Shown piece after piece: positions 2,771 to 33,164 of a stretch of DNA of 64,000 nucleotides. Source of the DNA: Thermococcus sp. AM4 (lineage in GTDB: Archaea; Methanobacteriota_B; Thermococci; Thermococcales; Thermococcaceae); assembly GCF_000151205.2 (NCBI RefSeq), contig NC_016051.1:248001-312000 (forward strand), written 5' to 3'. The notes below the pieces were generated by a model. It had not been told where the DNA came from. It made no database searches and saw only the letters and a list, made by a program, of their open reading frames with translations. The translations under genes were made by a program, and so were the position numbers. The number at the start of each line of letters is the position of its first letter. Within the stretch, counting starts at the first letter, position 1.

Positions 2771-3337
2771 TCAACCCCTCATCGCATCTTCGATCTGCTT
2801 CAGCCTGCTCTTTGGCTCGAGATCAGAAGACGCCGAGGCTTCAAACAGTGCCGTTGCCTCCTCCACAGTCTCGGCGTCAAAGTCTCCCGTCAGGATGCTC
2901 TCGCTCGTCAGGTCGAGCATCGTGCTCAAAGCCTCATCCAAACCTTCAACCTTCGTCATGGCCTTCTCGAACTCCACCTGCATCTTTGCTATGTCCTCCG
3001 CCCCGGGCCCCTCCGCTATGCTCTCCACGATGTCCCTGCTGAACTGGATGAAGTTGGCAGAGACCTTTACGAGCTCCCTCTGGATTTCCGCCTCCTCCAT
3101 GAGGAGGAGCAGCCTCTTCGCCTGTTTTATCCTCTCCTCAAGCGCGAGGTACTTCATTGCGCTCCGCTTTAGGAGAGCCTCGTCACCGAGTTTCGCCGCC
3201 TCCTTTCCCTGGAGGAAGACCTTCCTTTTCAGGGCTTCGAGGTTGTTGATGTACTGTTTGAGGGCCATTTTGGCCTTCCTCATCCTGACCTTGCGCTCGA
3301 TCTCCTTTTCCTCTTTGGACTTCCAGAACCGAACCAC
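2771..3337 (-). CDS. ESCRT-III/Snf7-like coiled-coil protein
   Basis: 188 aa. It opens with a basic segment holding aromatic residues (VRFWKSKEEKE), continues as a long basic coiled coil to about residue 110, and becomes acidic toward the end. This is the charge layout of Snf7/CHMP proteins. The last residues, with SRLKQIEDAMRG, resemble a MIM-type helix that MIT domains bind. It sits directly before a Vps4-like ATPase and directly after a receptor kinase, all tightly packed. Start is a GTG at 3337, overlapped by the ribosome site inside the end of the kinase gene. No enzymatic motif is visible. Alternative: an unrelated coiled-coil protein; a structure or profile comparison would decide. Confidence 0.65.
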   Translation of the reverse strand: MVRFWKSKEEKEIERKVRMRKAKMALKQYINNLEALKRKVFLQGKEAAKLGDEALLKRSAMKYLALEERIKQAKRLLLLMEEAEIQRELVKVSANFIQFSRDIVESIAEGPGAEDIAKMQVEFEKAMTKVEGLDEALSTMLDLTSESILTGDFDAETVEEATALFEASASSDLEPKSRLKQIEDAMRG

Positions 3338-11079: not shown

Positions 11080-12285
11080 TCACCATCCCCCAAACTCCTC
11101 CGCCCACTTCTCATAGCGCTCGATGTCCTTCCGCGTCAGCGGGCTTTTGATCTTCTTGAAAGCGGCCTCGAAGTCCCTCATCTCAAGCGGTCTTGTCCTC
11201 AGCGAGCGCCTCCTGAGCTTCTCGTAGGGCAGTTCCGCCAGCTTGTGGAGGTCCGGGTTCTCCTCGCGGATCATGTTCCATACCGCCTCCTGGCAGAGGT
11301 TCTTGATGTCCCTTCCGGAGTAGAGCCTTCTGACGCTCTCCTCCGCTATGGCATCGAGGTCGAGCCGGCTTATGTCGAGCCCGCGTGTATTGATCTTGAT
11401 GATCTCCTTCGTGGCTTTCTTGTCGGGCAGGGGAACATAGATCCTCCTCGGAAACCTCGACAGTACGGCCTCGTCGAGATCCCAGGGCGTGTTGGTTGCC
11501 GCCAGCGTCAGGACGAGTACATCACTTCCCTTGTCCTGGAAGCCGTCGAGTTCAGTCAGCAGGGTGGAGAGCATCCTCCTGCTCGCTTCACTCTGATCGC
11601 CGGAGCGCTTCGTCGTCAGCGCGTCTATCTCGTCCATGAAGACTATGCTCGGCGCCCTCTCCCGCGCCACCTCGTAGAGGGCCGAGATTATCTTGGTGGA
11701 CTCGCCGAAGTACTTGCTCAGAACGTTGCTGGCCTTAACTGAGAAGAAGGTCGCGTTCAGGCTTCCGGCGGCGGCGCTCGCGAGGAGAGTCTTACCGGTT
11801 CCAGGCGGACCGAAGAGCAGAATACCCTTCCAGGGCTGGATGGACTGGGGCCTCTGAAGGGCCGAGATGACGACGGTCTCCATTATCAGCCTTTTCACCT
11901 CATCAAGCCCACCGATGTCGCTCCACTTGACCTTCGACCTTGCGATGAGGTTCTCCACGTAGCGCTTGAACTGGTCTTCCTCGTCCACGCTCGCCTCACT
12001 TCCTCCTTTGCCGCCTTTCCCGCCTTCCTTCACCGGCTTGTGTTTCCTCTTCGCCCCGTAGCGGCCCTCCTCGACCTCCTTCGCTATCACCTCCCACTTC
12101 TTCGCCTTCTTCAGGTAGCTCTCGCAGTTGAACTCGTCGTACTTCGAGAGCTGCTTCAGTATCCTCGCGCACTCAAGGGCCTTCTTCCGGGCGGTTTCCT
12201 TATCCCCTTTCTTTATGGCATCCTCAAACTCCCTCTTGGCCTTCCTAAACGCTGACAGCAGGGGTCCGGACAGATCGACGGGCAT
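11080..12285 (-). CDS. Vps4/CdvC-like AAA ATPase with MIT-like N-terminus (second copy)
   Basis: 401 aa from the ATG at 12285, which has a GGAGGTG site; a longer frame to 12351 would overlap the upstream kinase and lacks support. It has an MIT-like three-helix region (1-75), a Lys/Gly-rich linker, Walker A GPPGTGKT near residue 157, Walker B IVFMDEIDAL near 215, the TNTPWDLDEAVLSRF stretch and a C-terminal KYEKWAEEFG helix. It matches the 1624-2769 protein nearly residue for residue through the AAA core and C-terminus but has a longer linker. It sits between a cytosolic kinase and the receptor-like gene. Partners are expected to be the Snf7-like proteins of this locus. Confidence 0.88.
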   Translation of the reverse strand: MPVDLSGPLLSAFRKAKREFEDAIKKGDKETARKKALECARILKQLSKYDEFNCESYLKKAKKWEVIAKEVEEGRYGAKRKHKPVKEGGKGGKGGSEASVDEEDQFKRYVENLIARSKVKWSDIGGLDEVKRLIMETVVISALQRPQSIQPWKGILLFGPPGTGKTLLASAAAGSLNATFFSVKASNVLSKYFGESTKIISALYEVARERAPSIVFMDEIDALTTKRSGDQSEASRRMLSTLLTELDGFQDKGSDVLVLTLAATNTPWDLDEAVLSRFPRRIYVPLPDKKATKEIIKINTRGLDISRLDLDAIAEESVRRLYSGRDIKNLCQEAVWNMIREENPDLHKLAELPYEKLRRRSLRTRPLEMRDFEAAFKKIKSPLTRKDIERYEKWAEEFGGW

Positions 12286-12337
12286 CTCAAACACCTCCTT
12301 CGTCAGGGCTTTTAGCTTATTTGAGCGGCTTATTCCA

Positions 12338-15205
12338 CTAAATCTGCTCAAAGCCCAGGCCCACCTTGTGCGCTATTACCTCGGCCTTCGCGAGGAGTTC
12401 CTCGCCTGCGAAGTTCAGCCCCTCCTCAAGGCGGACCTTTATCTGCTCCGCTAAAGCTTCCACGTCCCCGCTGAGCTCTCCTCGCGCGTAGAACTTCAGA
12501 TCGCTCGCGTACTTGTAGGCTTCCCTGAGGTTGCCCATCTTGAGGAACATCAACATCAGCTTGCCCGCGTAGAAAGCCGCCCTTGGGGCGTCGTTTAGGG
12601 TTATTGAGCGCTTCAACGCCTCTTTATAGCGCACGCCGAGGTAGGTCGCCAGCTCGAACTGGAGCTCGGCAACTGACTGGTAGCGCTCCTCCATGTCCTT
12701 TCGGAGGCAGGTGAGGATGATGTGCTCGACGTCTTTGGCCTCCGGATTGAGCTCGCCCGGCGGGATTGGCTCGTCGGTGGCTATCCTCGAGACGACCTCA
12801 ATCAGGTCGTCGCCCTCGAACGGCAGCCTTCCGGTGACGAGCTGGTAGAATATTACTCCTAACTGCCAGATGTCGCTCCTGTGGTCGGGCTTTCCAAAAC
12901 GGCGCGAGGTCTGTTCAGGAGAGGCGTAGAATGGAGTGAAGCTGGCCAGGGTTGTTGAATGGGTCTCGGCCATGGCCTTGCTCAGTCCCCAGTCGGAGAT
13001 TTTTGGTGTGCCGTTCTTGAGGAGAATGTTTGAGGGCTTTAAATCGCGGTGGATTATGCCCCTGCTGTGGGCGTACTTCAGGCCTTCCGTTATGTTGAAG
13101 ACGATGTATGAGGCGACATCAACGGGTAAAGGCTTGGGGAGCTTTTCAAGTGAAGATTCGCAGTACTCCATCTCGAGGAATGGAATCGGGAGAATGTTGG
13201 CATCGTAGAGGCGAACTATGTTCGGATGCTTCAGGTGGAGCCAGTTGGTTATCTCTCTGAGGAACGCCCTTCCGGTGTTCTCGTCGAGGCTGAGCGGGAT
13301 TTTGACGGCGACTATCTTTCCGTCCTTTCTCTTTGCCTTGTAAACCCTTGCGAAGCCGCCCTTTCCTATCAGCTCGACGTCGGTGTATCTGTAGGCCAGC
13401 TGGGGCGGGAAGTCGGCAGGAAGCTGAACTCCAGCGGGGGAAGGTGTTGGAGTTGGGGTGATTGGCTGGGGTGTCGGCGTGGCCGGGGTGACGGGTGTTG
13501 GTGGTGTGGCATAGGCTTGAGCCGTCCTCTCTGCGACCTCAACTGGAATGACCTTTTCAGTTTCAAGCTCGATGCCGTCCGCGATGGCTTTGATTTTAAT
13601 ACGGAAGTCGAAGTTGCCGGCGTACTTCGGCGTTACGGCGAGGCTCTTAGAGACCTTTTGGCCTTTCTTCAGCTCGGGGAATTCCAAAGTTGTGGTTTCG
13701 AGGTCGAGGAAGTCGTTGGCTGAGAGGTCAAGGGTGAGTTTTAGGGATTTGGCAAAGTCGTTTTTTGCAGTGAGCTTGAGGATTGAATCAACGCCTTCGA
13801 CGAGCCCCGGAACCGAGAGGGTGAGGGAGTTTTGAACGTTTTGTTTGAGGGGTTCCAAATCGAGGTAGTACTGGACATTGGGGGTTACGTTGAGGGATTT
13901 AACGACGGCTTTTGAGTCCATGACGATAAGAGAGACCTTCTTGGTGCGCCACTCTTTTCGTTTTTTCATCTCTTTCTTTGTTCGTTTGAAGATTGTTCCA
14001 ACTTTAACTTCAACTTCGTATTCCACTTCAACCTGATACTTACTGACACCGCTCAGGACTTCACAGTGGGTGTTGTGAATTTGGACATTAGTGTCCATTA
14101 CTTGAGCGTCAGAATTACCACAAAAGTCACACTCAGGCAGGTTTCCGTCCGGCGGAAGCCGAAGAATCCAAACGTCACCATAACCAGCGCCGAAGCTTTT
14201 AGTCCAGCCTGCTACGATAATGTCACCGTTCGGTGCAATGGCAACCGCGTGAGCCTCATCCCCGTTACTCCCGCCGTAGGTTTTCTGCCATTTCACGTTA
14301 CCATTCTCATCCAAACGAAGAACCCAAACGTCACTCCTACCAGCGCCGAAGCTGGTAGTGCCTCCAACCACGATGATGTCGCCGTTAGGAGCTATTGCAA
14401 TCGCTTTAGCCTTATCGTACCATTCTCCTCCGTAGGTTTTCTGCCATTTCACATTACCATTAGCATCAAGCCTGAGAACCCAAGCATCATCTTTGCCAGC
14501 GCCGAAGCTGTCAGTCCAGCCGGCCACGATGATGTCGCCGTTAGGAGCCAAAGCGAGAGCATACGCCTCATCCCACTTAGAGCCACCGTAGGTTTTCTGC
14601 CACTTAACGTTACCATTATTATCCAACCGAAGCACCCAAACATCATACTCACCAGCGCCGAAGCTTTTAGTCCAGCCTGCTACAATAATGTCCCCGTTTG
14701 GGGCAATGGCAACCGCGTAAGCCTCATCATAATCGCTTCCGCCGTAGGTCTTCTGCCACTTCACGTTACCGTTGGAATCCAACCTAAGAATCCAGGCATC
14801 CCAACCACCGGCGCCAAAGTGATCAGTATAACCGGCAACTATAATGTCTCCGTTCGGAGCAATGGCAACCGCCTCAGCATGATCGGTGTAGCCTCTCCCG
14901 TAGGTTTTCTGCCACTTAACGTTACCATTATTATCCAACCGAAGAACCCAAACGCTGCCGGCAGCGCCGAAGCTTTCAGTGTAGCCTGTTACTATTATGT
15001 CCCCGTTTGGGGCAATCTTCACATCATTGAACCAATCATTTTTGTCCCCACCGTACGTCTTGAACCATTTCACGTTCCCGTCCTTGTCAAGCCGAGCCAC
15101 GAAGCCGTCTCCTTCCCTTTCCCCAACAACAATAATGTCCCCGTCCATATCAACAGCCACAGCCTTAGCTTCGCCCGGCCCGTACGTCTTGGCCCAGTAC
15201 GACAT
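12338..15205 (-). CDS. Cytosolic SBBP-propeller Ser/Thr kinase
   Basis: 955 aa. There is no signal peptide and no TM helix, so the propeller (about 1-352, seven WQKTYGG-type repeats) should be inside the cell, unlike its secreted relatives. A CDFC motif and short repeated motif follow, then a CARDB-like beta domain (about 435-561), a Pro/Thr linker (565-592), and the kinase (about 603-850) with GKGGF loop, VAVKIP lysine, HRDLKPSN (Asp721) and DWG. It ends with the shared helical tail. The ATG at 15205 overlaps the TGA of the nucleotidyltransferase gene by one base, with a GGAGGTGG site. A TTG one codon upstream is a less likely start. Confidence 0.88.
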   Translation of the reverse strand: MSYWAKTYGPGEAKAVAVDMDGDIIVVGEREGDGFVARLDKDGNVKWFKTYGGDKNDWFNDVKIAPNGDIIVTGYTESFGAAGSVWVLRLDNNGNVKWQKTYGRGYTDHAEAVAIAPNGDIIVAGYTDHFGAGGWDAWILRLDSNGNVKWQKTYGGSDYDEAYAVAIAPNGDIIVAGWTKSFGAGEYDVWVLRLDNNGNVKWQKTYGGSKWDEAYALALAPNGDIIVAGWTDSFGAGKDDAWVLRLDANGNVKWQKTYGGEWYDKAKAIAIAPNGDIIVVGGTTSFGAGRSDVWVLRLDENGNVKWQKTYGGSNGDEAHAVAIAPNGDIIVAGWTKSFGAGYGDVWILRLPPDGNLPECDFCGNSDAQVMDTNVQIHNTHCEVLSGVSKYQVEVEYEVEVKVGTIFKRTKKEMKKRKEWRTKKVSLIVMDSKAVVKSLNVTPNVQYYLDLEPLKQNVQNSLTLSVPGLVEGVDSILKLTAKNDFAKSLKLTLDLSANDFLDLETTTLEFPELKKGQKVSKSLAVTPKYAGNFDFRIKIKAIADGIELETEKVIPVEVAERTAQAYATPPTPVTPATPTPQPITPTPTPSPAGVQLPADFPPQLAYRYTDVELIGKGGFARVYKAKRKDGKIVAVKIPLSLDENTGRAFLREITNWLHLKHPNIVRLYDANILPIPFLEMEYCESSLEKLPKPLPVDVASYIVFNITEGLKYAHSRGIIHRDLKPSNILLKNGTPKISDWGLSKAMAETHSTTLASFTPFYASPEQTSRRFGKPDHRSDIWQLGVIFYQLVTGRLPFEGDDLIEVVSRIATDEPIPPGELNPEAKDVEHIILTCLRKDMEERYQSVAELQFELATYLGVRYKEALKRSITLNDAPRAAFYAGKLMLMFLKMGNLREAYKYASDLKFYARGELSGDVEALAEQIKVRLEEGLNFAGEELLAKAEVIAHKVGLGFEQI

Positions 15206-16716: not shown

Positions 16717-18057
16717 TTATGATATGTTTGAAATGTTTAGCTCGTACCTGACGCTCCTCCCGGTTCCGCCCATTCTCTTGAGTATCCCTTTTTCAACGAG
16801 GTCTTTCAAATCTCTGGCCGCTGTAACCGGCGAAACTTCAAACATCTCCCTGTACTCCCTGTTCGTTATGCTTCCCTTCTCCTTCACGTAGAGAACGGCC
16901 TTAACCTGCCTCTCGTTGAGCCCAAGCTCCCTCAGCCTCTCCTCGGTCAGCCAGTCCCTGTAAAAGACCACCTGAAAGCCCCCGAAGGCCTCCTTAAACT
17001 CTGGCCTCGGCAGTTTGGCCTTCTCAAATGCCCTCAGAATCCTCAGCGTTCCGCTGCCCCACTTCTCAACGTAGCCGGCAAGATGGAAAACCTCGGCGAT
17101 GAGCCTGTTCCTCGGCTTCGATGGGTGCTCGCGGTAGAGGTCTTCCTCGGTCAGACCGATGGGAAGACCGCCGGGGTTCCAGAAGATTATCCTTTCGTCG
17201 AGAATCTTTATCTGCACCTCCTCGGGCATCCTGTAGTCCCTGTGCATCACGGCGTTTACCACTGCCTCTCTCATGGCCTCAAGGGGATAGTCCCAGATCT
17301 CTTCCCTCACCAGCCCCCTTATCACGTACCTTCTGCTCATGTGCTTCTTTATCGCGCTCACCGCTCCCTCGACCTGCTCGAAGAGGTTTCCTTCAACGTC
17401 AACCGAGTCGAGGATTTCGCTGCCCTTAAACCTTCCAACCCTCACCTTCGCCTGCGGGAAGAACCACTGGGGGTCTCTGCCGAAGAGCAGAATCAACGCC
17501 CTCGTAACCTTCCCGTCCCTAATCGGCCTGAGCTTTTTGAGAACCTCAATCTCGTCGTCGCTCGGCAGGTTCGCCCTTCTGATGAACTCTCTCACCTTAT
17601 CCAAATCAACGTCGTCGAGCGTGGCATCAACCGGATAGGCATCCCAGCTCAGCCCGACGCTCTCCTCGAACAGCTCCGAGATTTCCTTTGGGGTGAGCTT
17701 TCTGTTCGAGTTGCCAACCCTCCTGTAGGCTCTGCCCTTCACCATCACGGGCTTCACGGGATGCTCATCAACCTCTATCACTATCACGTCCTTACCGCCG
17801 CACCTCTCGACCCTGAGCCTCGGTATAACCTCCGGTTCGGTGTTCTGGGCTATCTCGTTGGCGAGCTTCGATAGCGTTTCCTTTCCAAGCTGAACGCCCA
17901 TCACTTTCTTATCTTTATCGCGGACGCCGATGATTATCACGCCGCCGTGAGTGTTGGCGAACGCCGAGACCGTCTCCAGTATGCGCTTTACGTCGATGTT
18001 TTCCTTGAACTCGACCCGCTCATTTTCTCCCGGTTTTATAAGCTTGCACACGTTCAT
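16717..18057 (-). CDS. Schlafen AlbA_2-domain regulator with winged helix
   Basis: 446 aa. The N-terminal AlbA_2 domain shows ENERVEFKENID and the block AFANTHGGVIIIGVRDK. A central region with MREAVVNAVMHRDY and WNPGGLP matches the ATPase-like HATPase_c_4 part of this family, and the C-terminus is a winged helix (SPVTAARDLKDLVEKGIL). Such proteins are annotated as predicted transcriptional regulators or helicase-related proteins; DNA binding is expected. The ATG overlaps the stop of the tandem kinase gene (ATGA), so it is the last gene of block B and translationally coupled to it. Confidence 0.85.
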   Translation of the reverse strand: MNVCKLIKPGENERVEFKENIDVKRILETVSAFANTHGGVIIIGVRDKDKKVMGVQLGKETLSKLANEIAQNTEPEVIPRLRVERCGGKDVIVIEVDEHPVKPVMVKGRAYRRVGNSNRKLTPKEISELFEESVGLSWDAYPVDATLDDVDLDKVREFIRRANLPSDDEIEVLKKLRPIRDGKVTRALILLFGRDPQWFFPQAKVRVGRFKGSEILDSVDVEGNLFEQVEGAVSAIKKHMSRRYVIRGLVREEIWDYPLEAMREAVVNAVMHRDYRMPEEVQIKILDERIIFWNPGGLPIGLTEEDLYREHPSKPRNRLIAEVFHLAGYVEKWGSGTLRILRAFEKAKLPRPEFKEAFGGFQVVFYRDWLTEERLRELGLNERQVKAVLYVKEKGSITNREYREMFEVSPVTAARDLKDLVEKGILKRMGGTGRSVRYELNISNIS

Positions 18058-21000
18058 TTCGACAGCGCCTCCCCCTCAATCCTCAGCACAAGCGCCCTTA
18101 CCTTCTCTTCAACCTCCGGGCCTATTGGAATGCCCTCTTTGAGAAGAAGCTCCACCTGGGCTATCGCACTCAGCAAATCGTCGAGGTTCTCGCGGGTGTA
18201 GAACTTTAGATCGTCCAGCGCCGCCAGAAGCTCCGCCTTGTCGTTCAGCTTGGCACTTAGAATGGCAATCTTCACGGTTTTGCGAATGCTCTCAATCCTC
18301 AACCTTTCAAACTCTTCACGTGAGCGGCTTTTCTTCATGGCTAAGCTCGTCTTCCTAAGCTCCTCTTTCTCCCTCTCCAGCTCTGTTAGGGATTCCAGAG
18401 CGGACAGAAACTCCTCAACGCTCTGATAGCGCTCTTCCTTCCTCTTCGCTAGGAGCTTTTCAAAGACTCCGTCAAACCTCTTGAGCCCCGGCTTGAGCTC
18501 GGAAATGGGCTTTGGCTTTGCGTAGAGGATTTTACCGACGAGGGCACCGGGAGAAGTTGCCCTATACGGGAGTTCGCCTGTCAAGAACTCATAGAGAATT
18601 AGACCAAGCTGGTAGATGTCAGTCCTGTGGTCCGGCTCCCCGAAGGTCTCCTCGTCAAGCTGTTCGGGAGCGGCGTAGAGCGGGGAGTAGCCGTAGTGCC
18701 TGCTCAGCGAGCTCCTCGCGCTTATCTTCGCCAGTCCCCAGTCCGTTATCTTGGGCGTCAGGTCGGCTTTGAGAAGGACGTTGAGCGGTTTGAGATCGAG
18801 GTGGTAGATGCCCTTTGAGTGAGCGTGGGCTAATCCCCTGGCAATGTCCGTGATGAGCTTTAAAGCGGTCTTCTCATCAACGGGCTTTGGATACTTCTCA
18901 AGGTCTCTGACGAGCTTCCCATCAACCTCAACGCCCTCGATGAACTCCATCTCAAGGTACGGAACCGGCAGAATGTCTGCCCTGTAAAGTCTTACTATGT
19001 TCTCGTGGTTAAGGTTGTACCATGCAGCAACCTCCTTGATGAACAGCCCGCTGGTCTTCTCGTCTATTCTGGGTATCTTGAGGGCAACGATTTTGCCGTC
19101 CTCTTTTCTGCGAGCTTTGAAAACTTTTGCAAAGCCGCCTTCACCGAGGAACTCAAGGGGCTCATAGCGTGAGAGAAGGGCAGAGGGGAAGCCTTCCACC
19201 GTCTTGGTCTCTTTTGCTGGCTTTGATTTTATGGCTTCATCAAGTTTAGCCTTGACCTCCGGCTTCTCAGCTCTAGCTTCGGGAAGAGATTGAGCAAATG
19301 CCTCTGCAACCCTCTCCGGCACCTCAATCTCCGGGATTACGGCCTTCTTTATCCAGTCGAGAATTTCTATGAGCCACTCTGATGGGATAATGCCGCTCTC
19401 TCCCGGCCCACGGGAGACTATGTTCCGCGTCACGAAGAGGTTTTCGCCCTCGATGATGTCCTTGAAGGGATGAACTGTGATTTCGTCGGGAAGGGGTTGG
19501 ATGAAGTCAATACTGCTCAGCTCTTTGTCCAGCTCTTCCAGCGCCGACTTCAGACCGGCTTCGTCCATAACCATGGCCTTCACGATGTAGCAGCGATTGT
19601 TGATGAGGTAGCCGGGGCAGGGTTTTTTGATCGATTTTTGTTTCTGTGGGTGTATTACTTCTGTTTCTTTAATACCTTCTACCTCGATTCTTTTTGGGAC
19701 ATTCTCTAGATCCTTTAACAGCTCGTTCACGTTTTTGTATCCAAGTCTTATTTTGTGGGTTATTATTTCGGCTTTTTCTATTATTTCAGGCGGTATTGTC
19801 AAACCATCTTTGAGCCTGAATTTGATTTGCTCGACAAGTTTTTCCACTTCTTGCTTTAACTCGCCCCTTGTATAAAAAACTAAATCACTCGCGTACTTGT
19901 AAGCCTCACGAGCATTGTTCGTCTTCAAGTTAATCAGCAAGAGCTCAGTAAGGTAGAAAGTAATCCTCCCGACATCACCCTTGCTCTTTCTCAAGCTTTC
20001 AGAGTAAGTCAAGTTCAAAATCCTCGCAAGGTCACGCTGAAGCTCTTCAACACTCTGATACCTCTTACTCTTATCCTTCTCAAGCATCTTCATTATGATT
20101 GGCTCAACTTTCTTTGCCTTGGGATTAATTTGGCTTGGTGATGTTGGCTTTTTGCTCAGAATCCCGTGCAGAACTTCACTCAATGAACCCTCAAAGGGTA
20201 ACCTGCCAGTAACCAGTTCATAGAAGATTACTCCAAGCTGCCAAATGTCCGTTCTCTCATCGATCGAGCCAAATCTTCTGTTTATCTGCTCTGGTGCGGC
20301 ATAGAGTGGCGTGAAGGAAGTGATTGTGGAGTCGCTTTCTGTGACGACCTTGCTGAGTCCCCAGTCACTTATCTTTGGAGTTCCATCCTTGAGAAGAATG
20401 TTGCTGGGCTTTAAATTACCATGAATTATACCTTTCGAGTGAGCGTACTTTAAGCCCTCGGCAATGTTAAAGACGATGTAGGAAGCTACCTCAACGGGTA
20501 AAGGCTTGGGGAGCTTTTCGAGAGAGCTTTCGCAGTACTCCATCTCAAAGAACGGGATTGGAAGGATGTTGTAGTCATAAACCCTGACGATGTTCGGATG
20601 CTTGAGCTTAGTCCAGTTCCCTATCTCACGAAGGAAGGACTTTCCGGTTGTCGGGTCAAGGCTTATTGGGATTTTTACAGCCACTACTTTGCCGTCCTTT
20701 CTCTTTGCCTTATACACGCGAGCAAAACCACCCTCGCCAAGGAATTCTAGCGACTCATAGCGGAAGAGAAGGGCCGATGAAATGTTGTCCTCGACTTCAA
20801 CCTTTCTGGCTGAAGGGGAGAGGGAGAGCCTCCCTTCAGGCTCCCACTCGCAGAGGATTTTGACCTTTGGAATCGCCGTTCTGATGGTGGCGGTTGTGTT
20901 GGTGATTTTGACGTATTCCTTGCGGAAGAATCCGGGCTTGAGCGGCGGAACGGTTACCTTGCATTTTGTGTTCTTGACGACAGCGTTGGTGTCCATGACT

Positions 21001-22166
21001 ATTGCGTTCGAGTCTTGGCAGAGCTTACAGCTGGGCAGGTTTCCATCTGGTGGAAGGCGGAGAATCCAAACATCGTCACCGAAGCTCCGAGTGTAGCCAG
21101 CCACTATAATATCTCCGTTCTCAGCTATTGTAACCGCATTGGCCTCATCGTAATCGCTTCCCCCATAGGTTTTCTGCCAGATTACATTACCATTCTCATC
21201 AAGCCTAAGAACCCAAACATTACCCTTTCCAGCTCCAAAGCTTCCGGTGTGACCTGCTATGATTATATCATTATTTGGAGCTAAAGCAATAGCATTAGCT
21301 ACATCATAATTGTTTCCTCCGTATGTTTTTTGCCATTTCACATTACCATTCTCATCTAGGCAAAGAACCCAACTATCCCATTTTCCAGCTCCAAAGCTTC
21401 CGGTGTGACCTGCCACAATAATGTCTCCGCTAGGAGTAACAACAGCCATAGAAGCCTCGTCTTGATTACCCCCGCCATATGTTTTTTGCCATTTTATGTT
21501 CCCATTACTATTCAGCCTGAGAATCCATGCATCCAATGTTTTAGCCCCAAAGCTGTAAGTGTATCCTATCACAATGAGGTCTCCATTTGGAGCTAACACA
21601 ATGGAATTAGCAAAGTCATCTTTATTCCCACCAAAAGTCTTCTGCCACTTAATGTTTCCTTCGCTATCAAGCCTGAGAACCCATATATCACAATTCCATC
21701 CAGTACTAAAGCTCCAAGTATAACCAGCTACAATAATGTCCTCGTTCTCAGCTATTGTAACCGCATTGGCCTCATCGTAATCGCTTCCTCCATAGGTCTT
21801 CTGCCATTTTACGTTGCCATTCTCATCAAACCTAAGAACCCAAACGTCACTTTTTCCAGCGCCGAAGCTCTCAGTGGAGCCAACAATAATAATGTCTCCA
21901 TTTAGAGCTATCTTCACATCGTTAAACTTATCATCCTTGCTTCCCCCTAGAATCCTCACCCACTTTACGTTCCCCTCTTTATCAAGCCTTGCCACAAGCC
22001 CGTTGCTCTTAGTGTTTTCCTTTTTCGGCTTAATGCTCCCGGCAACCACTATATCCCCATTCGGCATCAGCGCAACGGCCTTAGCTTCAGCTTCCATCCC
22101 CTCAAACTCATACGCCTTAATCCAGTACTTCCTATCGGCGGTCTCCGAGATTGTGACGGGCTTCAT
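18054..22166 (-). CDS. Propeller protein with tandem pseudokinase and kinase domains
   Basis: 1370 aa, no signal peptide or TM. Order: SBBP propeller (about 1-375); CKLC and short repeated motif; kinase-like domain 1 (about 465-725); the shared helical tail; an insert holding a CPGYLINNRCYIV motif; kinase domain 2 (about 998-1255); the shared tail again. Domain 1 has the GEGGF loop, VAVKIP lysine and DWG, but HRD is replaced by His582-Gly583-Asn584, so the catalytic base is missing and it is predicted inactive. Domain 2 keeps the catalytic Asp (H1122-L-D1124) but lacks the Arg, a non-RD kinase. The start ATG has GGAGGG directly beside it and overlaps the TGA of an upstream remnant frame, so the start is less certain. 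Pseudokinase control of the partner domain is inferred. Confidence 0.88.
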   Translation of the reverse strand: MKPVTISETADRKYWIKAYEFEGMEAEAKAVALMPNGDIVVAGSIKPKKENTKSNGLVARLDKEGNVKWVRILGGSKDDKFNDVKIALNGDIIIVGSTESFGAGKSDVWVLRFDENGNVKWQKTYGGSDYDEANAVTIAENEDIIVAGYTWSFSTGWNCDIWVLRLDSEGNIKWQKTFGGNKDDFANSIVLAPNGDLIVIGYTYSFGAKTLDAWILRLNSNGNIKWQKTYGGGNQDEASMAVVTPSGDIIVAGHTGSFGAGKWDSWVLCLDENGNVKWQKTYGGNNYDVANAIALAPNNDIIIAGHTGSFGAGKGNVWVLRLDENGNVIWQKTYGGSDYDEANAVTIAENGDIIVAGYTRSFGDDVWILRLPPDGNLPSCKLCQDSNAIVMDTNAVVKNTKCKVTVPPLKPGFFRKEYVKITNTTATIRTAIPKVKILCEWEPEGRLSLSPSARKVEVEDNISSALLFRYESLEFLGEGGFARVYKAKRKDGKVVAVKIPISLDPTTGKSFLREIGNWTKLKHPNIVRVYDYNILPIPFFEMEYCESSLEKLPKPLPVEVASYIVFNIAEGLKYAHSKGIIHGNLKPSNILLKDGTPKISDWGLSKVVTESDSTITSFTPLYAAPEQINRRFGSIDERTDIWQLGVIFYELVTGRLPFEGSLSEVLHGILSKKPTSPSQINPKAKKVEPIIMKMLEKDKSKRYQSVEELQRDLARILNLTYSESLRKSKGDVGRITFYLTELLLINLKTNNAREAYKYASDLVFYTRGELKQEVEKLVEQIKFRLKDGLTIPPEIIEKAEIITHKIRLGYKNVNELLKDLENVPKRIEVEGIKETEVIHPQKQKSIKKPCPGYLINNRCYIVKAMVMDEAGLKSALEELDKELSSIDFIQPLPDEITVHPFKDIIEGENLFVTRNIVSRGPGESGIIPSEWLIEILDWIKKAVIPEIEVPERVAEAFAQSLPEARAEKPEVKAKLDEAIKSKPAKETKTVEGFPSALLSRYEPLEFLGEGGFAKVFKARRKEDGKIVALKIPRIDEKTSGLFIKEVAAWYNLNHENIVRLYRADILPVPYLEMEFIEGVEVDGKLVRDLEKYPKPVDEKTALKLITDIARGLAHAHSKGIYHLDLKPLNVLLKADLTPKITDWGLAKISARSSLSRHYGYSPLYAAPEQLDEETFGEPDHRTDIYQLGLILYEFLTGELPYRATSPGALVGKILYAKPKPISELKPGLKRFDGVFEKLLAKRKEERYQSVEEFLSALESLTELEREKEELRKTSLAMKKSRSREEFERLRIESIRKTVKIAILSAKLNDKAELLAALDDLKFYTRENLDDLLSAIAQVELLLKEGIPIGPEVEEKVRALVLRIEGEALSK

Positions 22167-24091: not shown

Positions 24092-26683
24092 TCATCTTTT
24101 GAGTCTTGGATGTTTATAAAGCACGACAGTGATGTTGTCCGTGCTACCGAAGCTGTAAGCCTTTTCTATTAGCGTCTGCACGGCTTCTTCTAGCGATGGA
24201 GAAGTAACAACGGTTTTTGCTATCTCCTCGTCTGTCAAAACGTCACTGAGACCGTCCGAGCATAGTAGAAGGTAGTCTCCCTCCTTCAGTTGAATTGTGT
24301 TGATATCCCCTGGATCGATTCTTATTTCTGGGGAGATCCCTATGGCTTTTGTTAAAACGTTCTTCTGGGGGTGTACCCTCGCCTCGGCTTCGGTAATTTC
24401 TCCTCTGTCCACGAGCTCTTGAACAAATGAATGATCCTTGGTCAGCCGTTTGATCGTTCCATCTTTTTTGATCAGGTAGGTTCTGCTGTCTCCAATATTT
24501 CCAATAGTTGCGTTATTTCCCCTGATGATTGCGGCCGTTAGCGTTGTCCCCATGTTGTATCTCTCCGGGTGATCCGGATCGTGGCCCATAATGTATATCT
24601 CATCGTTGGCCTTTTTGATGGCCTCTTTCAGAATCTTTTCTGGATTCTCAGCCTTATTGCGCTCTAAGGTTTTCTCCAAAATTTCAATGGCCTTTCTGCT
24701 GGCGACCTCTCCTGCGAGGTGTCCACCCATTCCATCGGCAACTGCAAGGAGGATATTACCGCCAATTTTCTTGGCGATGTAGTAGTCCTCGTTATTGTCT
24801 CTCCTTCCAATGTAGCTTTTGGCTGCAACGTGCTTCTTAAACTCTTCGTCTGTGAGGCTAAATGTTGTCTCGTAGGCCGCGATTATTGAGTTTAGCTTGG
24901 CAGCCTTGACGCTGAATGTGTCCCGTATCCTCGTTGGCGTCACGTAGTCCCCCCTCCTAAAGCTGGAGACCGCCCGGGAATAGAGTTGTTGCATTTCGTT
25001 TAGCAATCCGTATACTGTGGGGGAATCTGTTATCCCCAACTGTTTTGCTTTTTTCTGTAAATCCCTTAGGATTTCACCCATTATCTTCACGGCCTCTTCC
25101 GCAGCCTTTATCCTGGCTTTCTGCTGTCTCTGTTGTTTGTAATTGTAGTATACTTCCGGCCCGAACCATGCTGCGGCCAAAAGTACCAGTATTCCCAGTA
25201 GAACTAAGATTACAATTTTCAGAATTGACGTCCAGTTAATCCCCCCAGAATGCTTGGCGGAAGTAGTAGAACCGGTCATGTTTCCGGCTGTTGAGTTCGT
25301 TGTCGTGGCGTTCATGGACGGTTTTGTAGTTATCGGAGTTGTTGTAGTTGTGGTGTTTATGCTGGTAGTCGTGGTTGTGGTAGTCGTTGTCCCTCCCGGG
25401 AAGGGAGTGGGTGAACCTGAGAAGGTCATACTCAGCACATCATCAAGTTTCTCGGTAACAGAAGGGTAGTTTTTCTCCATTATGCGCCAGGTCAGCTGCT
25501 TTAGCTCTTCTCTGATTGTCCGGTTCTCTGTTTCCGCGGCAAGTTTATTTAAAGAATCCGCCGTGGTATTCCAGAACCGTTCCAGCATCAGCTGGCTTAA
25601 TGTCAAGTTGCCCCCTTTTATCCCGTTGAGGGCCTCGTTGAAATAGCCCTCCAGAATTGTCATGTTGAGTTTGAGGTTGTTCTGGTATTTTTCGAGTATT
25701 GAGAGGGTTCTGTTCGCCAGTTTGATATTTTCTTGTAGGGAGATGCATTGCTCAAGCTCATCTTTGGTCCTGTTAATCTCCCGTATCCTGCTGATCACTA
25801 AACTCCGGTTATTACTATTCATGACTTCTCGGATGTCTATGGTCAGGAGGGGTTTGATGTACGGACAGGAAGATTTAATTTTGCCGTTGAGGTTCTCTAT
25901 TTTTTCGTTGATCAAGCTAAGTAGTTGTTTCTGCTCTGCGATTACATCGTTGAAAGCCCTAGTTATATCTCCGGACTTAATGAGTCCGTCTATCTCTTTC
26001 AGCTGGTTTATGAACTTCTCACTTTCGTTCTTTGATAGAAGCCCAGAACTTGCTTTTAATACCATGTCTATGAATGTCTCCTTGGTTTTTATCCTCCTAA
26101 TTTTGTCAACTCTTTGAATGCACGAATTTAGTTCATTTCTAATGTCCTGGATCTTCGAGTTGAGTGAAGCGAGTTGTTTTAATGTTTCGTTAACTTCCGT
26201 AACGTTATAGAACGTTTTAGGTAAATCTGCAAGCTTTTCTGTTTCGTTTTGGATCTCTTTCATGACACTAGAACATTCCATGGAGTAATTCAATGCCTTC
26301 TCTTTCAGTGTTGAGAGGCTTTCATTCAATGCTCTCACTTTCGAGTTTATGATACTGGTTATGCTGTTCCATACCGAGGAAATCGTTTCATTGGCGAGGG
26401 TGACGTTTCCTTGTGTCAGGAGTATCCTGGCCCTGAGGGTTTCGTTGCGAAGCTTTTCGATTTCAGTTATATTGAATTCAAGTGTGGGTGAATAGTTCTC
26501 AAGCAGTATCAGGCTTAAGTTTGCTTCCGAGATGCTTTGGTTTACCTTCAAGGCGAGATCTCCAGAGGAGGCAGGGGCAGCAACCGCTGGTGTGGACGGT
26601 ACCAGACTGGAGATGACCAAGAAGATAAAAAACCATGTCCAGTTCTGCTTAAGATTTTCCGCATCTTTTTTCAGTATCCTCAT
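24092..26683 (-). CDS. One-pass PP2C-type Ser/Thr protein phosphatase with extracellular helical sensor
   Basis: 863 aa. Signal peptide (about 1-36), then a mostly helical extracellular region (to about 425) with many N-x-S/T glycosylation sites, a Thr-rich stalk (about 428-475), one TM helix (about 484-506), a cytosolic helical linker and a C-terminal PP2C domain (about 615-855). PP2C motifs are all present: RRDNNEDYY, VADGMGGH, GTTLTAAII, IGDSRTYL, LLCSDGLSD and STDNITVV, including the metal-binding aspartates. PP2C enzymes remove phosphate from Ser/Thr, so this is the natural opponent of the kinases around it. It sits between two kinase genes. Start ATG with a GGGGGTG site. Confidence 0.92.
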   Translation of the reverse strand: MRILKKDAENLKQNWTWFFIFLVISSLVPSTPAVAAPASSGDLALKVNQSISEANLSLILLENYSPTLEFNITEIEKLRNETLRARILLTQGNVTLANETISSVWNSITSIINSKVRALNESLSTLKEKALNYSMECSSVMKEIQNETEKLADLPKTFYNVTEVNETLKQLASLNSKIQDIRNELNSCIQRVDKIRRIKTKETFIDMVLKASSGLLSKNESEKFINQLKEIDGLIKSGDITRAFNDVIAEQKQLLSLINEKIENLNGKIKSSCPYIKPLLTIDIREVMNSNNRSLVISRIREINRTKDELEQCISLQENIKLANRTLSILEKYQNNLKLNMTILEGYFNEALNGIKGGNLTLSQLMLERFWNTTADSLNKLAAETENRTIREELKQLTWRIMEKNYPSVTEKLDDVLSMTFSGSPTPFPGGTTTTTTTTTSINTTTTTTPITTKPSMNATTTNSTAGNMTGSTTSAKHSGGINWTSILKIVILVLLGILVLLAAAWFGPEVYYNYKQQRQQKARIKAAEEAVKIMGEILRDLQKKAKQLGITDSPTVYGLLNEMQQLYSRAVSSFRRGDYVTPTRIRDTFSVKAAKLNSIIAAYETTFSLTDEEFKKHVAAKSYIGRRDNNEDYYIAKKIGGNILLAVADGMGGHLAGEVASRKAIEILEKTLERNKAENPEKILKEAIKKANDEIYIMGHDPDHPERYNMGTTLTAAIIRGNNATIGNIGDSRTYLIKKDGTIKRLTKDHSFVQELVDRGEITEAEARVHPQKNVLTKAIGISPEIRIDPGDINTIQLKEGDYLLLCSDGLSDVLTDEEIAKTVVTSPSLEEAVQTLIEKAYSFGSTDNITVVLYKHPRLKR

Positions 26684-29282: not shown

Positions 29283-29897
29283 TCAAAACTCCTCCATCCA
29301 CTCCTCCTTTTTCTTCTCGCGCTCCTCCCCCGTCACCTTCTCGGCCGCGACCTCTGGCTCAAGTTCACCCTCTTTGACCGCATGGATGGTCTTCATGATC
29401 TCCGCTAATTCTTCGTCCTCCTCGAACTCAACGCCCGCCCCGATCGTCTGGTCGGTCATACCGAGCATCTGGTTGAGGTTCTCGTTGAAGTTCTGGGCGT
29501 CGAGCTGCATCTCCGCCAGGTGCCTTTCGAGTTCCTCAGGGGACATGTTCCTAAGCAGGTCCCAGGTCGGTGTTCCCTTCAGTAAGGCCTCGTTCTCCTT
29601 GATTATCGCGAGGTTGCTGACCAGCATGAGCTGTTTGTTCAGTTGCATGTGCGTCTTCTGGAGGTTCTGCTTGCGTCTGTTGAGGGTCTTGATCTTGGTC
29701 GCTATCGTGAGTTCCTCACTCTTGGTTCTGGCTCTCTTTGCCTGTTCGAAAAGCCGGGCTATCTCGCGGTCTATCGCGGCTATTTCCTCCTCAATCTTTT
29801 GGATCTGGTATTCCAGCTTTATCCTGCTCTCGTTGAGCTTGCCAAGGGGTATGTCGAGGGGGTTCTTCTTTCCAAAAAATCTGGAGAAGAAACTCAT
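29283..29897 (-). CDS. ESCRT-III/Snf7-like protein
   Basis: 204 aa. The N-terminus MSFFSRFFGKKN is short, amphipathic and basic, much like the start of CHMP/Snf7 proteins that dips into membranes. A long basic helical hairpin follows (about 18-95), then helices about 100-150, and an acidic C-terminal third ending in charged helices. It is a paralogue of the next protein (29894-30493), sharing the pattern of LVxNLxIIK, a Trp-Leu pair and PEELE near the middle. No MIM motif is certain. ATG with GAGGAGTT site; its start overlaps the upstream stop (ATGA). Filament formation on membranes is inferred, not shown. Confidence 0.65.
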   Translation of the reverse strand: MSFFSRFFGKKNPLDIPLGKLNESRIKLEYQIQKIEEEIAAIDREIARLFEQAKRARTKSEELTIATKIKTLNRRKQNLQKTHMQLNKQLMLVSNLAIIKENEALLKGTPTWDLLRNMSPEELERHLAEMQLDAQNFNENLNQMLGMTDQTIGAGVEFEEDEELAEIMKTIHAVKEGELEPEVAAEKVTGEEREKKKEEWMEEF

Positions 29898-30493
29898 AAC
29901 TCCTCTTCCTCCTCAATGCCCCTGTCGAGCGAAACGACTTTCTCCGCGACTTCCTCTACGTCGGCCTCCCCTGCCTCGACCTGGCTCCAGGCCTTCATGA
30001 GCTCCCTCTCGGTCTCGTCTTCGCCCTCCTCGAACTCCGCTATCTCCATCTCGAAGACCCTATTGAGACCCTCGACCATCTCGTCGAACTCCTTGCCGTC
30101 GAGGTTGATCTTTATGAGCGCCTGCTCAAGCTGCTCGGGCTCCACCTTGCTGAGCTTCTCCCAGAGGCCGACCTTCCTGAGCTCCTTTTCGTACTTCTTG
30201 ACGATGATGAGGTTCTTCACGAGGGTGTACTGCTTCTGGGCCATTGTGAAGTCCTTGAGCTTGAGCTTCTGCTCCATGTCGAGGCTCTTGATCTCCTGAG
30301 CCAGCATCTTCTTCTTGAGCTTGTCCGCCCCGATGCCCTCCTGGAAGAGCTGCTTCTTTTTCTTCTCGATCTGGTTGAGGTCCTTCTTAAGGCGCTCAAG
30401 CCTGTTCTTCAGCCGTATCTCCTCTGCCTGGAGTTCCCTAAGGGAGAGCTTCTCGATAGTGTTTTTCCTTCCAAACATGTCCCGGATTCTCAT
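29894..30493 (-). CDS. ESCRT-III/Snf7-like protein (paralogue)
   Basis: 199 aa from ATG 30493, which has a GGAGGTG site; a frame to 30598 exists but is not supported. The N-terminus MRIRDMFGRKN is again short and basic, followed by a Lys-rich coiled coil (about 15-95), a conserved KNLIIVKKYE and GLWEKLSK block, and a strongly acidic end. Stops overlap: its TGA overlaps the ATG of 29897, and its ATG lies next to the stop of the small gene upstream (30495). Two different Snf7-like subunits encoded side by side fit a hetero-filament, as known ESCRT-III proteins form, but this is inference. Confidence 0.65.
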   Translation of the reverse strand: MRIRDMFGRKNTIEKLSLRELQAEEIRLKNRLERLKKDLNQIEKKKKQLFQEGIGADKLKKKMLAQEIKSLDMEQKLKLKDFTMAQKQYTLVKNLIIVKKYEKELRKVGLWEKLSKVEPEQLEQALIKINLDGKEFDEMVEGLNRVFEMEIAEFEEGEDETERELMKAWSQVEAGEADVEEVAEKVVSLDRGIEEEEEL

Positions 30494-30494
30494 T

Positions 30495-30770
30495 TCAAAC
30501 ACCTCCATGAGCGTTAGGGTGAAAAACGAAAGCTTCACCCGGCGAGGAGTTCCTCCTTGCGGCCCGTTCGAGGGGCTCGAAGTCGAGGTACTCTTCAACA
30601 GTTCTCTCGACGAAGTTCAGCCTCCTCTCCTCGTCCCTGCTCTGGATCACCTCTCCCCTGCTCACAACCCTGTACCGGAAGGCGGGCGGCGTGTCGTTCA
30701 GTATCCTGAAGTCCGGGTGCTTTTCGAGGGCTCTCCTGAGCCTTTCCTTAACCTCGATGACGCTCGGCAT
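30495..30770 (-). CDS. Small protein of unknown function in the Snf7-like operon
   Basis: 91 aa from ATG 30770 (AGGGG site); an in-frame GTG at 30788 is possible. The first 30 residues are helical, then a strand-like FRYRVVSRGEVI, another helix and a flexible, Pro- and His-containing tail. No family recognised. Packed one base from the next gene, so it should be a component or chaperone of the same assembly. Confidence 0.65.
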   Translation of the reverse strand: MPSVIEVKERLRRALEKHPDFRILNDTPPAFRYRVVSRGEVIQSRDEERRLNFVERTVEEYLDFEPLERAARRNSSPGEAFVFHPNAHGGV

Positions 30771-30789
30771 GCTCAAAACCCCTTTCACC

Positions 30790-32616
30790 TCAGAGGAACC
30801 CCTCCTTCACGAGGACGTAGCCGACCCCCTCGATGAACTTCGTGAGGTAGCCCTTCTCGTTCCTGAGCTCCTGGAAGGCCCTTTTCACAAGGTCCTCGGC
30901 GAAGTGCTCAACGGCCTCCTCAAGCCTGACGTAGCCCCTCTCCAGAATTCTGCCCTCAAGGAACTCCTTGACCTTGGCGAGGAGCTCTTCATCGCGCTCA
31001 AGGCGGAGCATCGGTTCGAAGGCTTTGGCGTACTCGTCGTGCGGGTTGTAGATCAGCTCCCCGCTTTCGAGGTCGAGCAGGGCCAACGAGACGTTCTCGG
31101 AGATGAAGTTCCTGTGGAACTCGTTCGAGTTGATGTAGTTCGCGATTCTCTTCTCGAAGCCAGTCGGGGACGCAACGAGGAGGACGACGCGGCCGTTCTT
31201 GGCTTCCCTCTTCGCGTCCACGAGGAGGGCGTTGATGTCCGCCAGTTCGAGCGGATCGGTGTCGAAGCCGACATCGGCGTAGCGCTCCGGCCTTCCGTAG
31301 AAGCGCGCCCTGACTGTTATTTCCTCCTTCTTGCCGAGGAGCTTCTTCTCCCTCAGCCTGACGACGACCTCGGTGTTGTCCGGGAGGTTCTTGATGTCCC
31401 TCTCGCTCAGCTTTCCTTCGTAGCGCCCCTTGTCGAAGGTCGCCCTCTCCTCAACGGCCTCGACCTTGAACGTCCTCCCGAGGAGCTTTACCTCATCCTT
31501 GAACTTGGCCAGCATTCTGCCCGTGAAGTTCATCTCCAGCATCTTGGCCTCGTCGACCTTCACGAAGCGCGAGCCCTTCTCGACCTTTCCGGCGAGCTCC
31601 ATTACCTCCCTGATCCGCCTCGAAACCTCGTCCTCCTTCTCCTTCAGTTCGAGCTCCTTCCTGCGGAGCTCCATCTCCTTCTGCCTGAGTTCGAGCTCTC
31701 TTCTCCGTATCTCCTCCTCCATGGCCTTAACGCTCGCCATCATCTCCTCCTGCATCCTGGCCAGCTCTTCCTCAAGGGTTCTCCTCGCTTCCTCGTCCTT
31801 CATCCTGCTGATCTCCTCGATGAGCCTCGCCTTCTCCTCCTCGAACTGCCTCCTGAGTTCCTCTTTCTCTCTCTTCAGTCTCTCGATTTCCTCGGCCTTT
31901 GCGCTCTCTATCTTCCTCCTTATTTCCTCTTTCTCCCTCTCGAGGTTGCCCCTGAGCTCTTCAAGCTGTCTCCTCAGGTTCTCCACCTGACGCCTGTAGG
32001 TTTTCTCAACAGCTTCAGTCCTCTCGTCCTCCATCATGAGGTAATCTCTCATCCAGTCGAAGCGCTCGATCGCCTCGCCGAGGGCGGCGTTTACCTTGCC
32101 CCTGTAGGAGTCCCACTTGGATTTAAGGAAGGACCTCAGCGCCAGCCTGACCTTTGGATCCCTGAGGAACTCGTCTATCCACCTGTCCACGCCCCGGTAA
32201 TAGTCCCTCAGAAGGTTCAGGACGTTGGTGTCCCTGTGCATTATCATCTTCATGATGTCTTCCTTTGTGTAGATTTCGAAGACGTTGTAGCTGAGAACCC
32301 TCTCAACCGCGTCGAGCTCCTTGTCCTTGTACCTCCTGCTGGCCGGAAGGTAGGTTTCCCCGTTTTCTCTGAAGGCCCAGGCGAGTATCGCCAGGGCCCC
32401 CTCGAACTTGGCCTGAAAGTGTCTGTCGAGGTCTTTGAGAAAGTCGCCGCATTCTCCGTCAAGATAACGGTCGTAGTTTTCCTTTATCTGCCTCCAGAGC
32501 CTTTCCCTTCTCCCGTAGTCCTCGGTTGCGATGTCCAGCCCTTCCTTCAGAACCCTCTCCGCCGGGCGGAGCAGTTCCTTAACGCAGTCAGTCCTTCCTT
32601 CCTCGAACAGCCCCAT
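30790..32616 (-). CDS. Large coiled-coil protein of unknown function
   Basis: 608 aa from ATG 32616 (GGTGG site overlapping the upstream stop). Three parts: an N-terminal helical domain (about 1-200), a continuous charged coiled coil (about 205-345, rich in EEIRRRELEL-type heptads), and a C-terminal mixed domain (about 350-608) with a VVLLVASPTGFEKRI stretch and an end that looks like a winged helix or four-helix element. It is not one of the known SMC or Rad50 families: no Walker motifs are present. In this place it may serve as a scaffold or tether for the Snf7-like proteins. Function unknown. Confidence 0.72.
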   Translation of the reverse strand: MGLFEEGRTDCVKELLRPAERVLKEGLDIATEDYGRRERLWRQIKENYDRYLDGECGDFLKDLDRHFQAKFEGALAILAWAFRENGETYLPASRRYKDKELDAVERVLSYNVFEIYTKEDIMKMIMHRDTNVLNLLRDYYRGVDRWIDEFLRDPKVRLALRSFLKSKWDSYRGKVNAALGEAIERFDWMRDYLMMEDERTEAVEKTYRRQVENLRRQLEELRGNLEREKEEIRRKIESAKAEEIERLKREKEELRRQFEEEKARLIEEISRMKDEEARRTLEEELARMQEEMMASVKAMEEEIRRRELELRQKEMELRRKELELKEKEDEVSRRIREVMELAGKVEKGSRFVKVDEAKMLEMNFTGRMLAKFKDEVKLLGRTFKVEAVEERATFDKGRYEGKLSERDIKNLPDNTEVVVRLREKKLLGKKEEITVRARFYGRPERYADVGFDTDPLELADINALLVDAKREAKNGRVVLLVASPTGFEKRIANYINSNEFHRNFISENVSLALLDLESGELIYNPHDEYAKAFEPMLRLERDEELLAKVKEFLEGRILERGYVRLEEAVEHFAEDLVKRAFQELRNEKGYLTKFIEGVGYVLVKEGFL

Positions 32617-32617
32617 C

Positions 32618-33133
32618 TCAACCACCCGCGAACAGCCTCATTTCCTCATCTATCCTATCTGCCAAAAGATCAACAACATCTCCATACCCCTCGATCTCGA
32701 AAAGCACAAATGTTCTTCCCCCATTTTGGATCCTGAGCCTTATTGTCCCCCTGCCTTTTCGGGTGTAGACGCTGTACGTCTTCTCTTCCCCGCTCGATTC
32801 CACCTGGGTCGCGTTCATCTTGGAGAGCAGGTAGTCTAAGAAGCGCTCAACGACCTTCGGTTCCTCCTCTATGGTGTATTCAAGCCTTCTCTTCCTCGCC
32901 TTCACGGTCTTCCTTACCTCTTTTGCCTCGTAGACTTCAACTTTCTCCTCGGCGTTCCCTTCGAGCCTTGAGAAGAGCTCCTCAAGGAAACCCTGGGCTT
33001 CGTCGGTTTCAATGTAGAAGACCATGCCCTTTGGCTTTTTGACGGTGGCCTTAGATGACCATTTGTCGAGGAGGTAGTCGATGCGCTTCCTCTCGGCGTC
33101 GTTATCGTACGCGACAAAGAGGATGTATCCCAT
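32618..33133 (-). CDS. Protein of unknown function, first gene of block B
   Basis: 171 aa from ATG 33133. The first 75 residues alternate strands and helices (GYILFVAYDND, then FYIETDEAQGFLEEL), suggesting a small alpha/beta fold. The second half is another mixed domain ending with a helix (DVVDLLADRIDEEM). No family recognised. A TATA box at 33165-33172 gives a leader of about 10 nt, so it heads the operon with the coiled-coil and Snf7-like genes. Confidence 0.68.
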   Translation of the reverse strand: MGYILFVAYDNDAERKRIDYLLDKWSSKATVKKPKGMVFYIETDEAQGFLEELFSRLEGNAEEKVEVYEAKEVRKTVKARKRRLEYTIEEEPKVVERFLDYLLSKMNATQVESSGEEKTYSVYTRKGRGTIRLRIQNGGRTFVLFEIEGYGDVVDLLADRIDEEMRLFAGG

Positions 33134-33164
33134 ACGCACCACTGCCACTTATTTGTTGTTCATC

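Follow-up and report, generated by a model that had tools for sequence, protein, structure and literature searches.

The window analyzed here, 64,000 nucleotides of the complete 2.09-Mb genome of Thermococcus sp. AM4 (NC_016051.1, positions 248,001 to 312,000), harbors a tandem-kinase gene on the minus strand (18054-22166), whose frame is open over 1370 residues and in which Pfam recognized two Pkinase stretches. From the N to the C terminus, the protein comprises a delta-60 propeller, kinase domain 1 with a helical, putatively PCI-like tail, a linker, and kinase domain 2 with a second helical tail (Table 1), and the residue numbers given in an earlier sequence-only reading of this locus are all exact. 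The tail of domain 1 is called PCI-like by analogy with the small C-terminal PCI-like domain ascribed to the STKs of Main-clade ESCRT loci (PMC10936438). Neither a signal peptide nor a TM segment was detected in the tandem-kinase protein, in which no 19-residue window exceeds KD 1.7, and the neighboring PEGA kinases differ from it in having a signal peptide or hydrophobic segment. The AF2 model of domain 1 is a complete bilobal kinase, with pLDDT mostly at 75-97 except in the activation loop. The model of the tandem contains two full kinase folds with a pTM of 0.45, which gives no reliable arrangement of, or interface between, domains 1 and 2, and a fold search with it returned generic kinases with PknB at the top.

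Table 1. Parts of the tandem-kinase protein and associated genes, in window coordinates.
Feature	Positions	Strand	Basis
N-terminal beta-propeller, delta-60/DUF5122 repeats, residues 1-405	20952..22166	-	Pfam DUF5122 40 bits; NCBIfam delta_60_rpt 97.8 bits
Kinase domain 1, predicted pseudokinase, residues 466-735	19962..20771	-	Pkinase HMM; AF2 fold; conserved-position comparison
HGN 582-584 replacing HRD, codons CAT GGT AAT	20415..20423	-	Sequence
Helical tail of domain 1, residues 736-846	19629..19961	-	Alignment with paralogues; helices in AF2 model
Linker, residues 847-996, common to the G052 homologue without domain 1	19179..19628	-	Pairwise alignment; mostly low model confidence
Kinase domain 2, predicted active non-RD, residues 997-1282	18321..19178	-	Pkinase HMM; 0 departures at 49 near-invariant positions
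HLD 1122-1124, catalytic Asp kept, Arg replaced	18795..18803	-	Sequence; common to domain-2 clade
Helical tail of domain 2, residues 1283-1370	18057..18320	-	Helices in AF2 model
Vps4/CdvC-like AAA ATPase	11080..12351	-	Pfam AAA and Vps4_C above cut-off; CdvC model 205.8 bits, below equivalog cut-off 650
Second Vps4-like AAA gene	1624-2769		Sequence-model matches
Weak Snf7 match	2771-3337	-	Pfam; beside AAA 1624-2769
PP2C phosphatase with TM segments	24092..26683	-	Pfam PP2C 82 bits
Probable ESCRT-III-like coiled-coil protein	29283..29897	-	Pfam Snf7 E=0.006, below cut-off

Several kinases share the cluster of the window with these AAA, Snf7-like and PP2C genes. The probable ESCRT-III-like protein is 68-94% identical in 20 loci, in which it adjoins kinases and AAA genes. 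Solved structures searched with a profile built from the Snf7-like proteins included no ESCRT-III match, so the ESCRT-III identity rests on the weak Pfam match, the neighborhood and the literature, with context and literature counting for more than sequence. Makarova et al. (2024; PMC10936438) describe “Main” euryarchaeal ESCRT loci, including those of Thermococcales, that carry STK and phosphatase genes. The tandem-kinase gene has the company expected of a Main-clade ESCRT-associated STK, namely a Vps4_C AAA gene, a weak Snf7-like protein and a PP2C, and its locus belongs to the kinase-associated ESCRT/Vps4 clusters known from Thermococcales. In addition, the window contains a conserved set of four proteins (29283-33148), most of which have no clear Pfam assignment. 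This set is found repeatedly in the company of kinases throughout Thermococcus and fits the Main ESCRT systems of that account.

The end of the tandem gene overlaps by 4 bases with a gene for an AlbA_2/Schlafen-type regulator with HATPase_c_4 and HTH (16717-18057, minus strand), which suggests coupled translation; copies of this regulator, 84-89% identical, occur in genomes G044 and G019. In G019, a close relative, a near-identical cluster (L112, G019:C1:909900-929800) is without the tandem kinase in that slot, which is filled instead by an ATPase like that at 38074-39417 of the window. A Thermococcales-like kinase/ESCRT cluster was also observed in a MAG labelled Archaeoglobus (L016, JACDNU010000045.1), indicative of either mis-binning or transfer.

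Catalytic motifs and the rarity of HGN

Domain 1 contains the motifs GEGGFARV, VAVK498, FLRE514, H582-G-N584-LKPSN589, D601WG and APEQ, and domain 2 contains GEGGFAKV, VALK, FIKE(V), H1122-L-D1124-LKPLN, DWG (1142-1144) and APEQ. The sequence-only reading had reported HGN instead of HRD at 582-584, with the lysine, Glu and DWG of domain 1 kept, and HLD at 1122-1124 of domain 2, all of which is exact. Lys498, Glu514 (FLREI), the catalytic-loop Lys, Asn589 and DWG (601-603) are retained in domain 1, and among 49 near-invariant alignment positions (at least 95% conserved in 94 other related kinase domains) it departs at one, the catalytic Asp, and domain 2 at none. A pseudokinase is defined in sequence terms by loss of at least one of the beta3 Lys, HRD Asp and DFG Asp; domain 1 falls under this definition through the replacement of the HRD Asp by Asn584, with Lys498 and Asp601 kept. 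Domain 2 possesses all the sequence hallmarks of a Hanks-type Ser/Thr kinase (Gly loop, beta3 Lys, alpha-C Glu, HxD Asp, DxG and APE) and is non-RD, in that the residue preceding its catalytic Asp is not Arg. The earlier claim of a pseudokinase preceding an intact non-RD kinase is therefore supported as a prediction, with only the catalytic Asp lost from domain 1 and domain 2 intact. HLD was rejected as a special trait of domain 2, since it is usual in the domain-2 clade (15 HLD and 1 HND among 125 domains); in Sulfolobus islandicus, every ePK has been described as non-RD (PMC5682000).

Of 125 distinct kinase domains from Thermococcaceae, 107 have HRD in the catalytic loop, 15 HLD, 1 HND and 2 HGN. 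The two HGN domains come from different species, and each stands first in a tandem-kinase ORF. If two HxN domains are placed randomly among 125 domains that include three tandem first positions, the chance of both landing in such positions is 3/7750 (~4e-4). When 94 Thermococcaceae genomes were scanned in full at the DNA level for HxN-hydrophobic-KPxN, 7 matches were obtained, of which only those in the window gene and the tandem gene of genome G055 lie in a recognized kinase domain; the HxD version of the pattern gave more than 150 matches. A stricter HGN pattern matched in 2 of 115 genomes from the phylum, again those of the window and G055. HGN in the second species is encoded by different codons (CATGGTAAT versus CATGGGAAC), on which ground a sequencing error or lone mutation was rejected; error is also unlikely because two codons have changed relative to HRD. 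A short Bud32-like kinase elsewhere in the window (57706-58371, minus strand) contains HGDLTTSN, the HGD of which is distinct from the HGN of domain 1.

Related tandems and the position of domain 1

Three tandem-kinase ORFs were found, that of the window and those of G055 (locus L014, 7911-10361) and G045 (locus L013, 9086-11266), and in all three a damaged first domain precedes an intact second one. The first domain of G055 combines HGN with a broken Gly loop and the loss of Gly and Leu after DW (9 of the 49 conserved positions changed), and that of G045 keeps HRD and has the Gly loop GDDDLTKV, changes in the alpha-C region and LTPSN (7 of 49 changed). The sequence-only reading had looked to conservation of HGN in orthologues; HGN does recur in the tandem of G055. 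In the third tandem, however, HRD is present and the damage lies at other positions, which means that degeneracy of the first domain, and not HGN itself, is what is conserved. None of the kinase loci compared, which represent part of the family's loci, contains a tandem whose domains are both intact.

In the tree, the nearest kin of domain 1 are other Thermococcus kinases. Constraining the two HGN domains together raised the log-likelihood by 9.2 in the first set (p-AU 0.716) and lowered it by 6.6 in a reduced set (p-AU 0.315), and constraining all three first domains together gave a p-AU of 0.112. Because the first-domain branches are long (window 0.31, G055 1.02, G045 0.71; median 0.053), the tree is not strong evidence for or against a single tandem origin. 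The idea that the three first domains form the longest branches proved wrong for the window domain, which ranks joint sixth of 97.

A homologue in G052 (locus L067) is 65-85% identical to the window protein over residues 1-446, depending on the block, and 77.5% identical over 847-1366; pairwise alignment revealed that it is without exactly residues 447-846, which correspond to domain 1 and its tail. Other members of the domain-2 clade have various modules ahead of the kinase, including a propeller (L073), PEGA repeats (L077 and L078), a macro domain combined with either PEGA repeats (L076) or a PQQ-type propeller (L080) and, in L069, L070, L071 and L075, a domain without Pfam identification. 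The absence of domain 1 from the G052 homologue and the presence of modules at that place in other clade members indicate that the pseudokinase occupies an input-module position, and no other observation made here argues as well for a regulatory role. The G052 homologue (L067:5211-8153, G052:C123) has an in-frame TAG just past the APE of its kinase, which may reflect a pseudogene, an error or readthrough.

Comparison with known pseudokinase–kinase systems

Pairing of a pseudokinase with a kinase is best known from the JAKs. The JH2 domain of JAKs also reads HGN (PMC6287396, PMC2754085), which makes the comparison with JAK stronger than the sequence-only reading, which had drawn it from domain order, knew. 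As in JAK1-3 and TYK2, an HGN pseudokinase lies N-terminal to an intact kinase, with input domains further ahead (PMC6287396, PMC2754085, PMC8141879), and the JAK-like order is supported in this respect. Unlike JAK, however, the tandem protein has no FERM or SH2 domain, Pfam showing only propeller repeats and kinase domains; both of its kinase domains are of the Ser/Thr-type Hanks family, kin to archaeal paralogues and PknB, whereas JAKs are tyrosine kinases; and its pseudokinase motif is DWG, in contrast to DPG in JAK. When domain 1 was compared by sequence with solved structures, PknB was nearest and no JAK occurred among the best 60. Since its nearest relatives are Thermococcus kinases and bacterial PknB, the likeness to JAK is convergent, as the earlier suggestion of an origin independent of JAK had implied. 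Among the best 50 structural matches of the AF2 tandem, TYK2 JH2-JH1 (4oli) was the only one spanning both domains, with a TMt of 0.39 and an rmsd of 18 from a low-pTM model, and this alignment gives no support for a JAK-like packing of the modelled domains.

The pseudokinase–kinase tandem is already known in prokaryotes: the bacterial defense proteins PglW of type 2 BREX and DndF contain NERD, then a pseudokinase, then a kinase (PMC12839542). They resemble the window protein in placing a prokaryotic pseudokinase directly ahead of an active S/T/Y kinase within one multidomain protein. In contrast to them, the tandem protein has no NERD (no Pfam hit) or iSTAND module, and its gene lies in an ESCRT/Vps4 cluster, which is neither BREX nor Dnd. 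With a score of 93.7 bits for the PglW model, over the kinase part, against a cut-off of 990, the protein falls outside PglW. Like Main-clade ESCRT STKs, it couples a kinase to a small helical C-terminal domain and is linked to Vps4, ESCRT-III and a phosphatase, but those STKs are described, in the available part of the source, as single-kinase and typically membrane-associated (PMC10936438), whereas the tandem protein combines two kinase domains and is without TM segments. The ActPs2 bacterial pseudokinases likewise have Asn for the catalytic Asp of HRD (PMC12599244), but they also have Arg for the beta3 Lys and often a deleted DFG, both of which domain 1 keeps. As far as the literature compared shows, an archaeal, ESCRT-linked tandem with recurrent first-domain degeneration is new, and a mention in a life-wide pseudokinase survey is possible.

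Proposed mechanism and alternatives

We propose, as a reading with about an even chance of being correct, that the protein is a cytoplasmic signaling kinase of the ESCRT cluster, in which an ATP-binding pseudokinase in the input position would switch kinase 2 in a manner like JAK JH2-JH1, with a relation to JAK limited to the kinase fold. The propeller would bind a ligand or partner. Domain 1, with ATP-site residues kept and Asn for the base, would probably bind ATP and Mg without efficient phosphotransfer, and may contact kinase 2 directly, switching its activity according to nucleotide or partner state, which would amount to the allosteric control suggested in the sequence-only reading. Kinase 2, being non-RD, is not expected to be gated by an activation-loop phosphate; from its gene neighborhood, it may phosphorylate targets of the ESCRT/Vps4 cluster, with the neighboring PP2C phosphatase in opposition. 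HLD kinases lie within a few kb of AAA and ESCRT-III-like genes in most of the loci compared, with some overlaps of 9 bases. Several observations count against the proposed switch: the distance between the window kinase and the AAA gene, ~5.7 kb, exceeds that in most relatives; the survey contains only three tandem genes, and a pseudokinase is missing from the majority of kinase 2 relatives; the AF2 tandem supports no interface between its domains; and the G019 cluster is without the tandem.

Domain 1 may instead be a decaying passenger, a paralogous kinase recombined into the protein that is losing its function and has no regulatory role, which we consider unlikely. The long first-domain branches, the differences in lesions between tandems and the patchy occurrence would all fit such decay. 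The insert is also A+T-richer than kinase 2 (GC 0.46 for domain 1, 0.375 for its tail and 0.535 for kinase 2), consistent with either a separate history or relaxed drift. In the window domain 1, however, only one near-invariant site is lesioned, the frame is open and the protein sequence is strongly constrained, HGN is common to two species, and even the most diverged first domain retains the Lys-Glu pair and its frame. In comparisons of domain 1 with its nearest relatives, synonymous sites are saturated and 18-20% of nonsynonymous sites differ (33% between the two HGN domains), so its protein sequence has been under selection for most of its history; this estimate spans the periods before and after the HGN change together, and the saturation precludes an exact dN/dS.

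Somewhat less probable still is that domain 1 is a low-activity atypical kinase whose regulation of kinase 2 works through phosphorylation of kinase 2 itself or of the linker. JAK2 JH2 keeps weak activity with HGN and autophosphorylates S523 and Y570 (PMC4718504), and all the other residues in question (Lys, Glu, the catalytic-loop Lys and Asn, and DWG) are kept in domain 1, but JAK1 and TYK2 JH2 are inactive with the same change (PMC4718504), and in S. islandicus ePKs whose corresponding Asp was replaced (by Asn or Ala, and by Glu in one kinase), autophosphorylation was lost in every case but one (PMC5682000). A docking or oligomerization scaffold formed by domain 1 and its helical tail, with nucleotide binding irrelevant, would account for the retention of the tail in the window and G055 tandems and agrees with the oligomerization or wH-protein binding proposed for the PCI-like domain in PMC10936438, but it is improbable given the intact ATP site of the window domain, which a pure scaffold would not need.

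If the proposed regulatory switch is real, a pseudokinase–kinase pairing arose in archaea with the same catalytic-loop change as in JAK, which would point to loss of the catalytic base, with the ATP site preserved, as a favored route to a switch, and a regulated kinase would be added to the poorly understood ESCRT/Vps4 systems of Thermococcales. A broader and rather doubtful possibility is that Thermococcales evolved their own JAK-like switch, perhaps more than once, with the first domain of ESCRT-cluster tandems repeatedly becoming a nucleotide-sensing pseudokinase that controls a non-RD kinase and converging on HGN. The system is small and should be thermostable, and as the window gene and the G052 homologue are natural versions with and without the pseudokinase, its contribution to the kinase is directly testable.

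Two kinds of N-terminal fusion were also observed among the HLD kinases. A well-conserved N-terminal domain of ~200 residues (KINWSFNRWKGFDWEAFRRR...), without a Pfam match, is fused to the kinase in L069:8533-10473, L070:9544-11502, L071:7098-9080 and L075:8811-10817. In L076:4780-8598 and L080:8379-12308, the macro domain lies directly ahead of the kinase, which suggests sensing of ADP-ribose or a related nucleotide.
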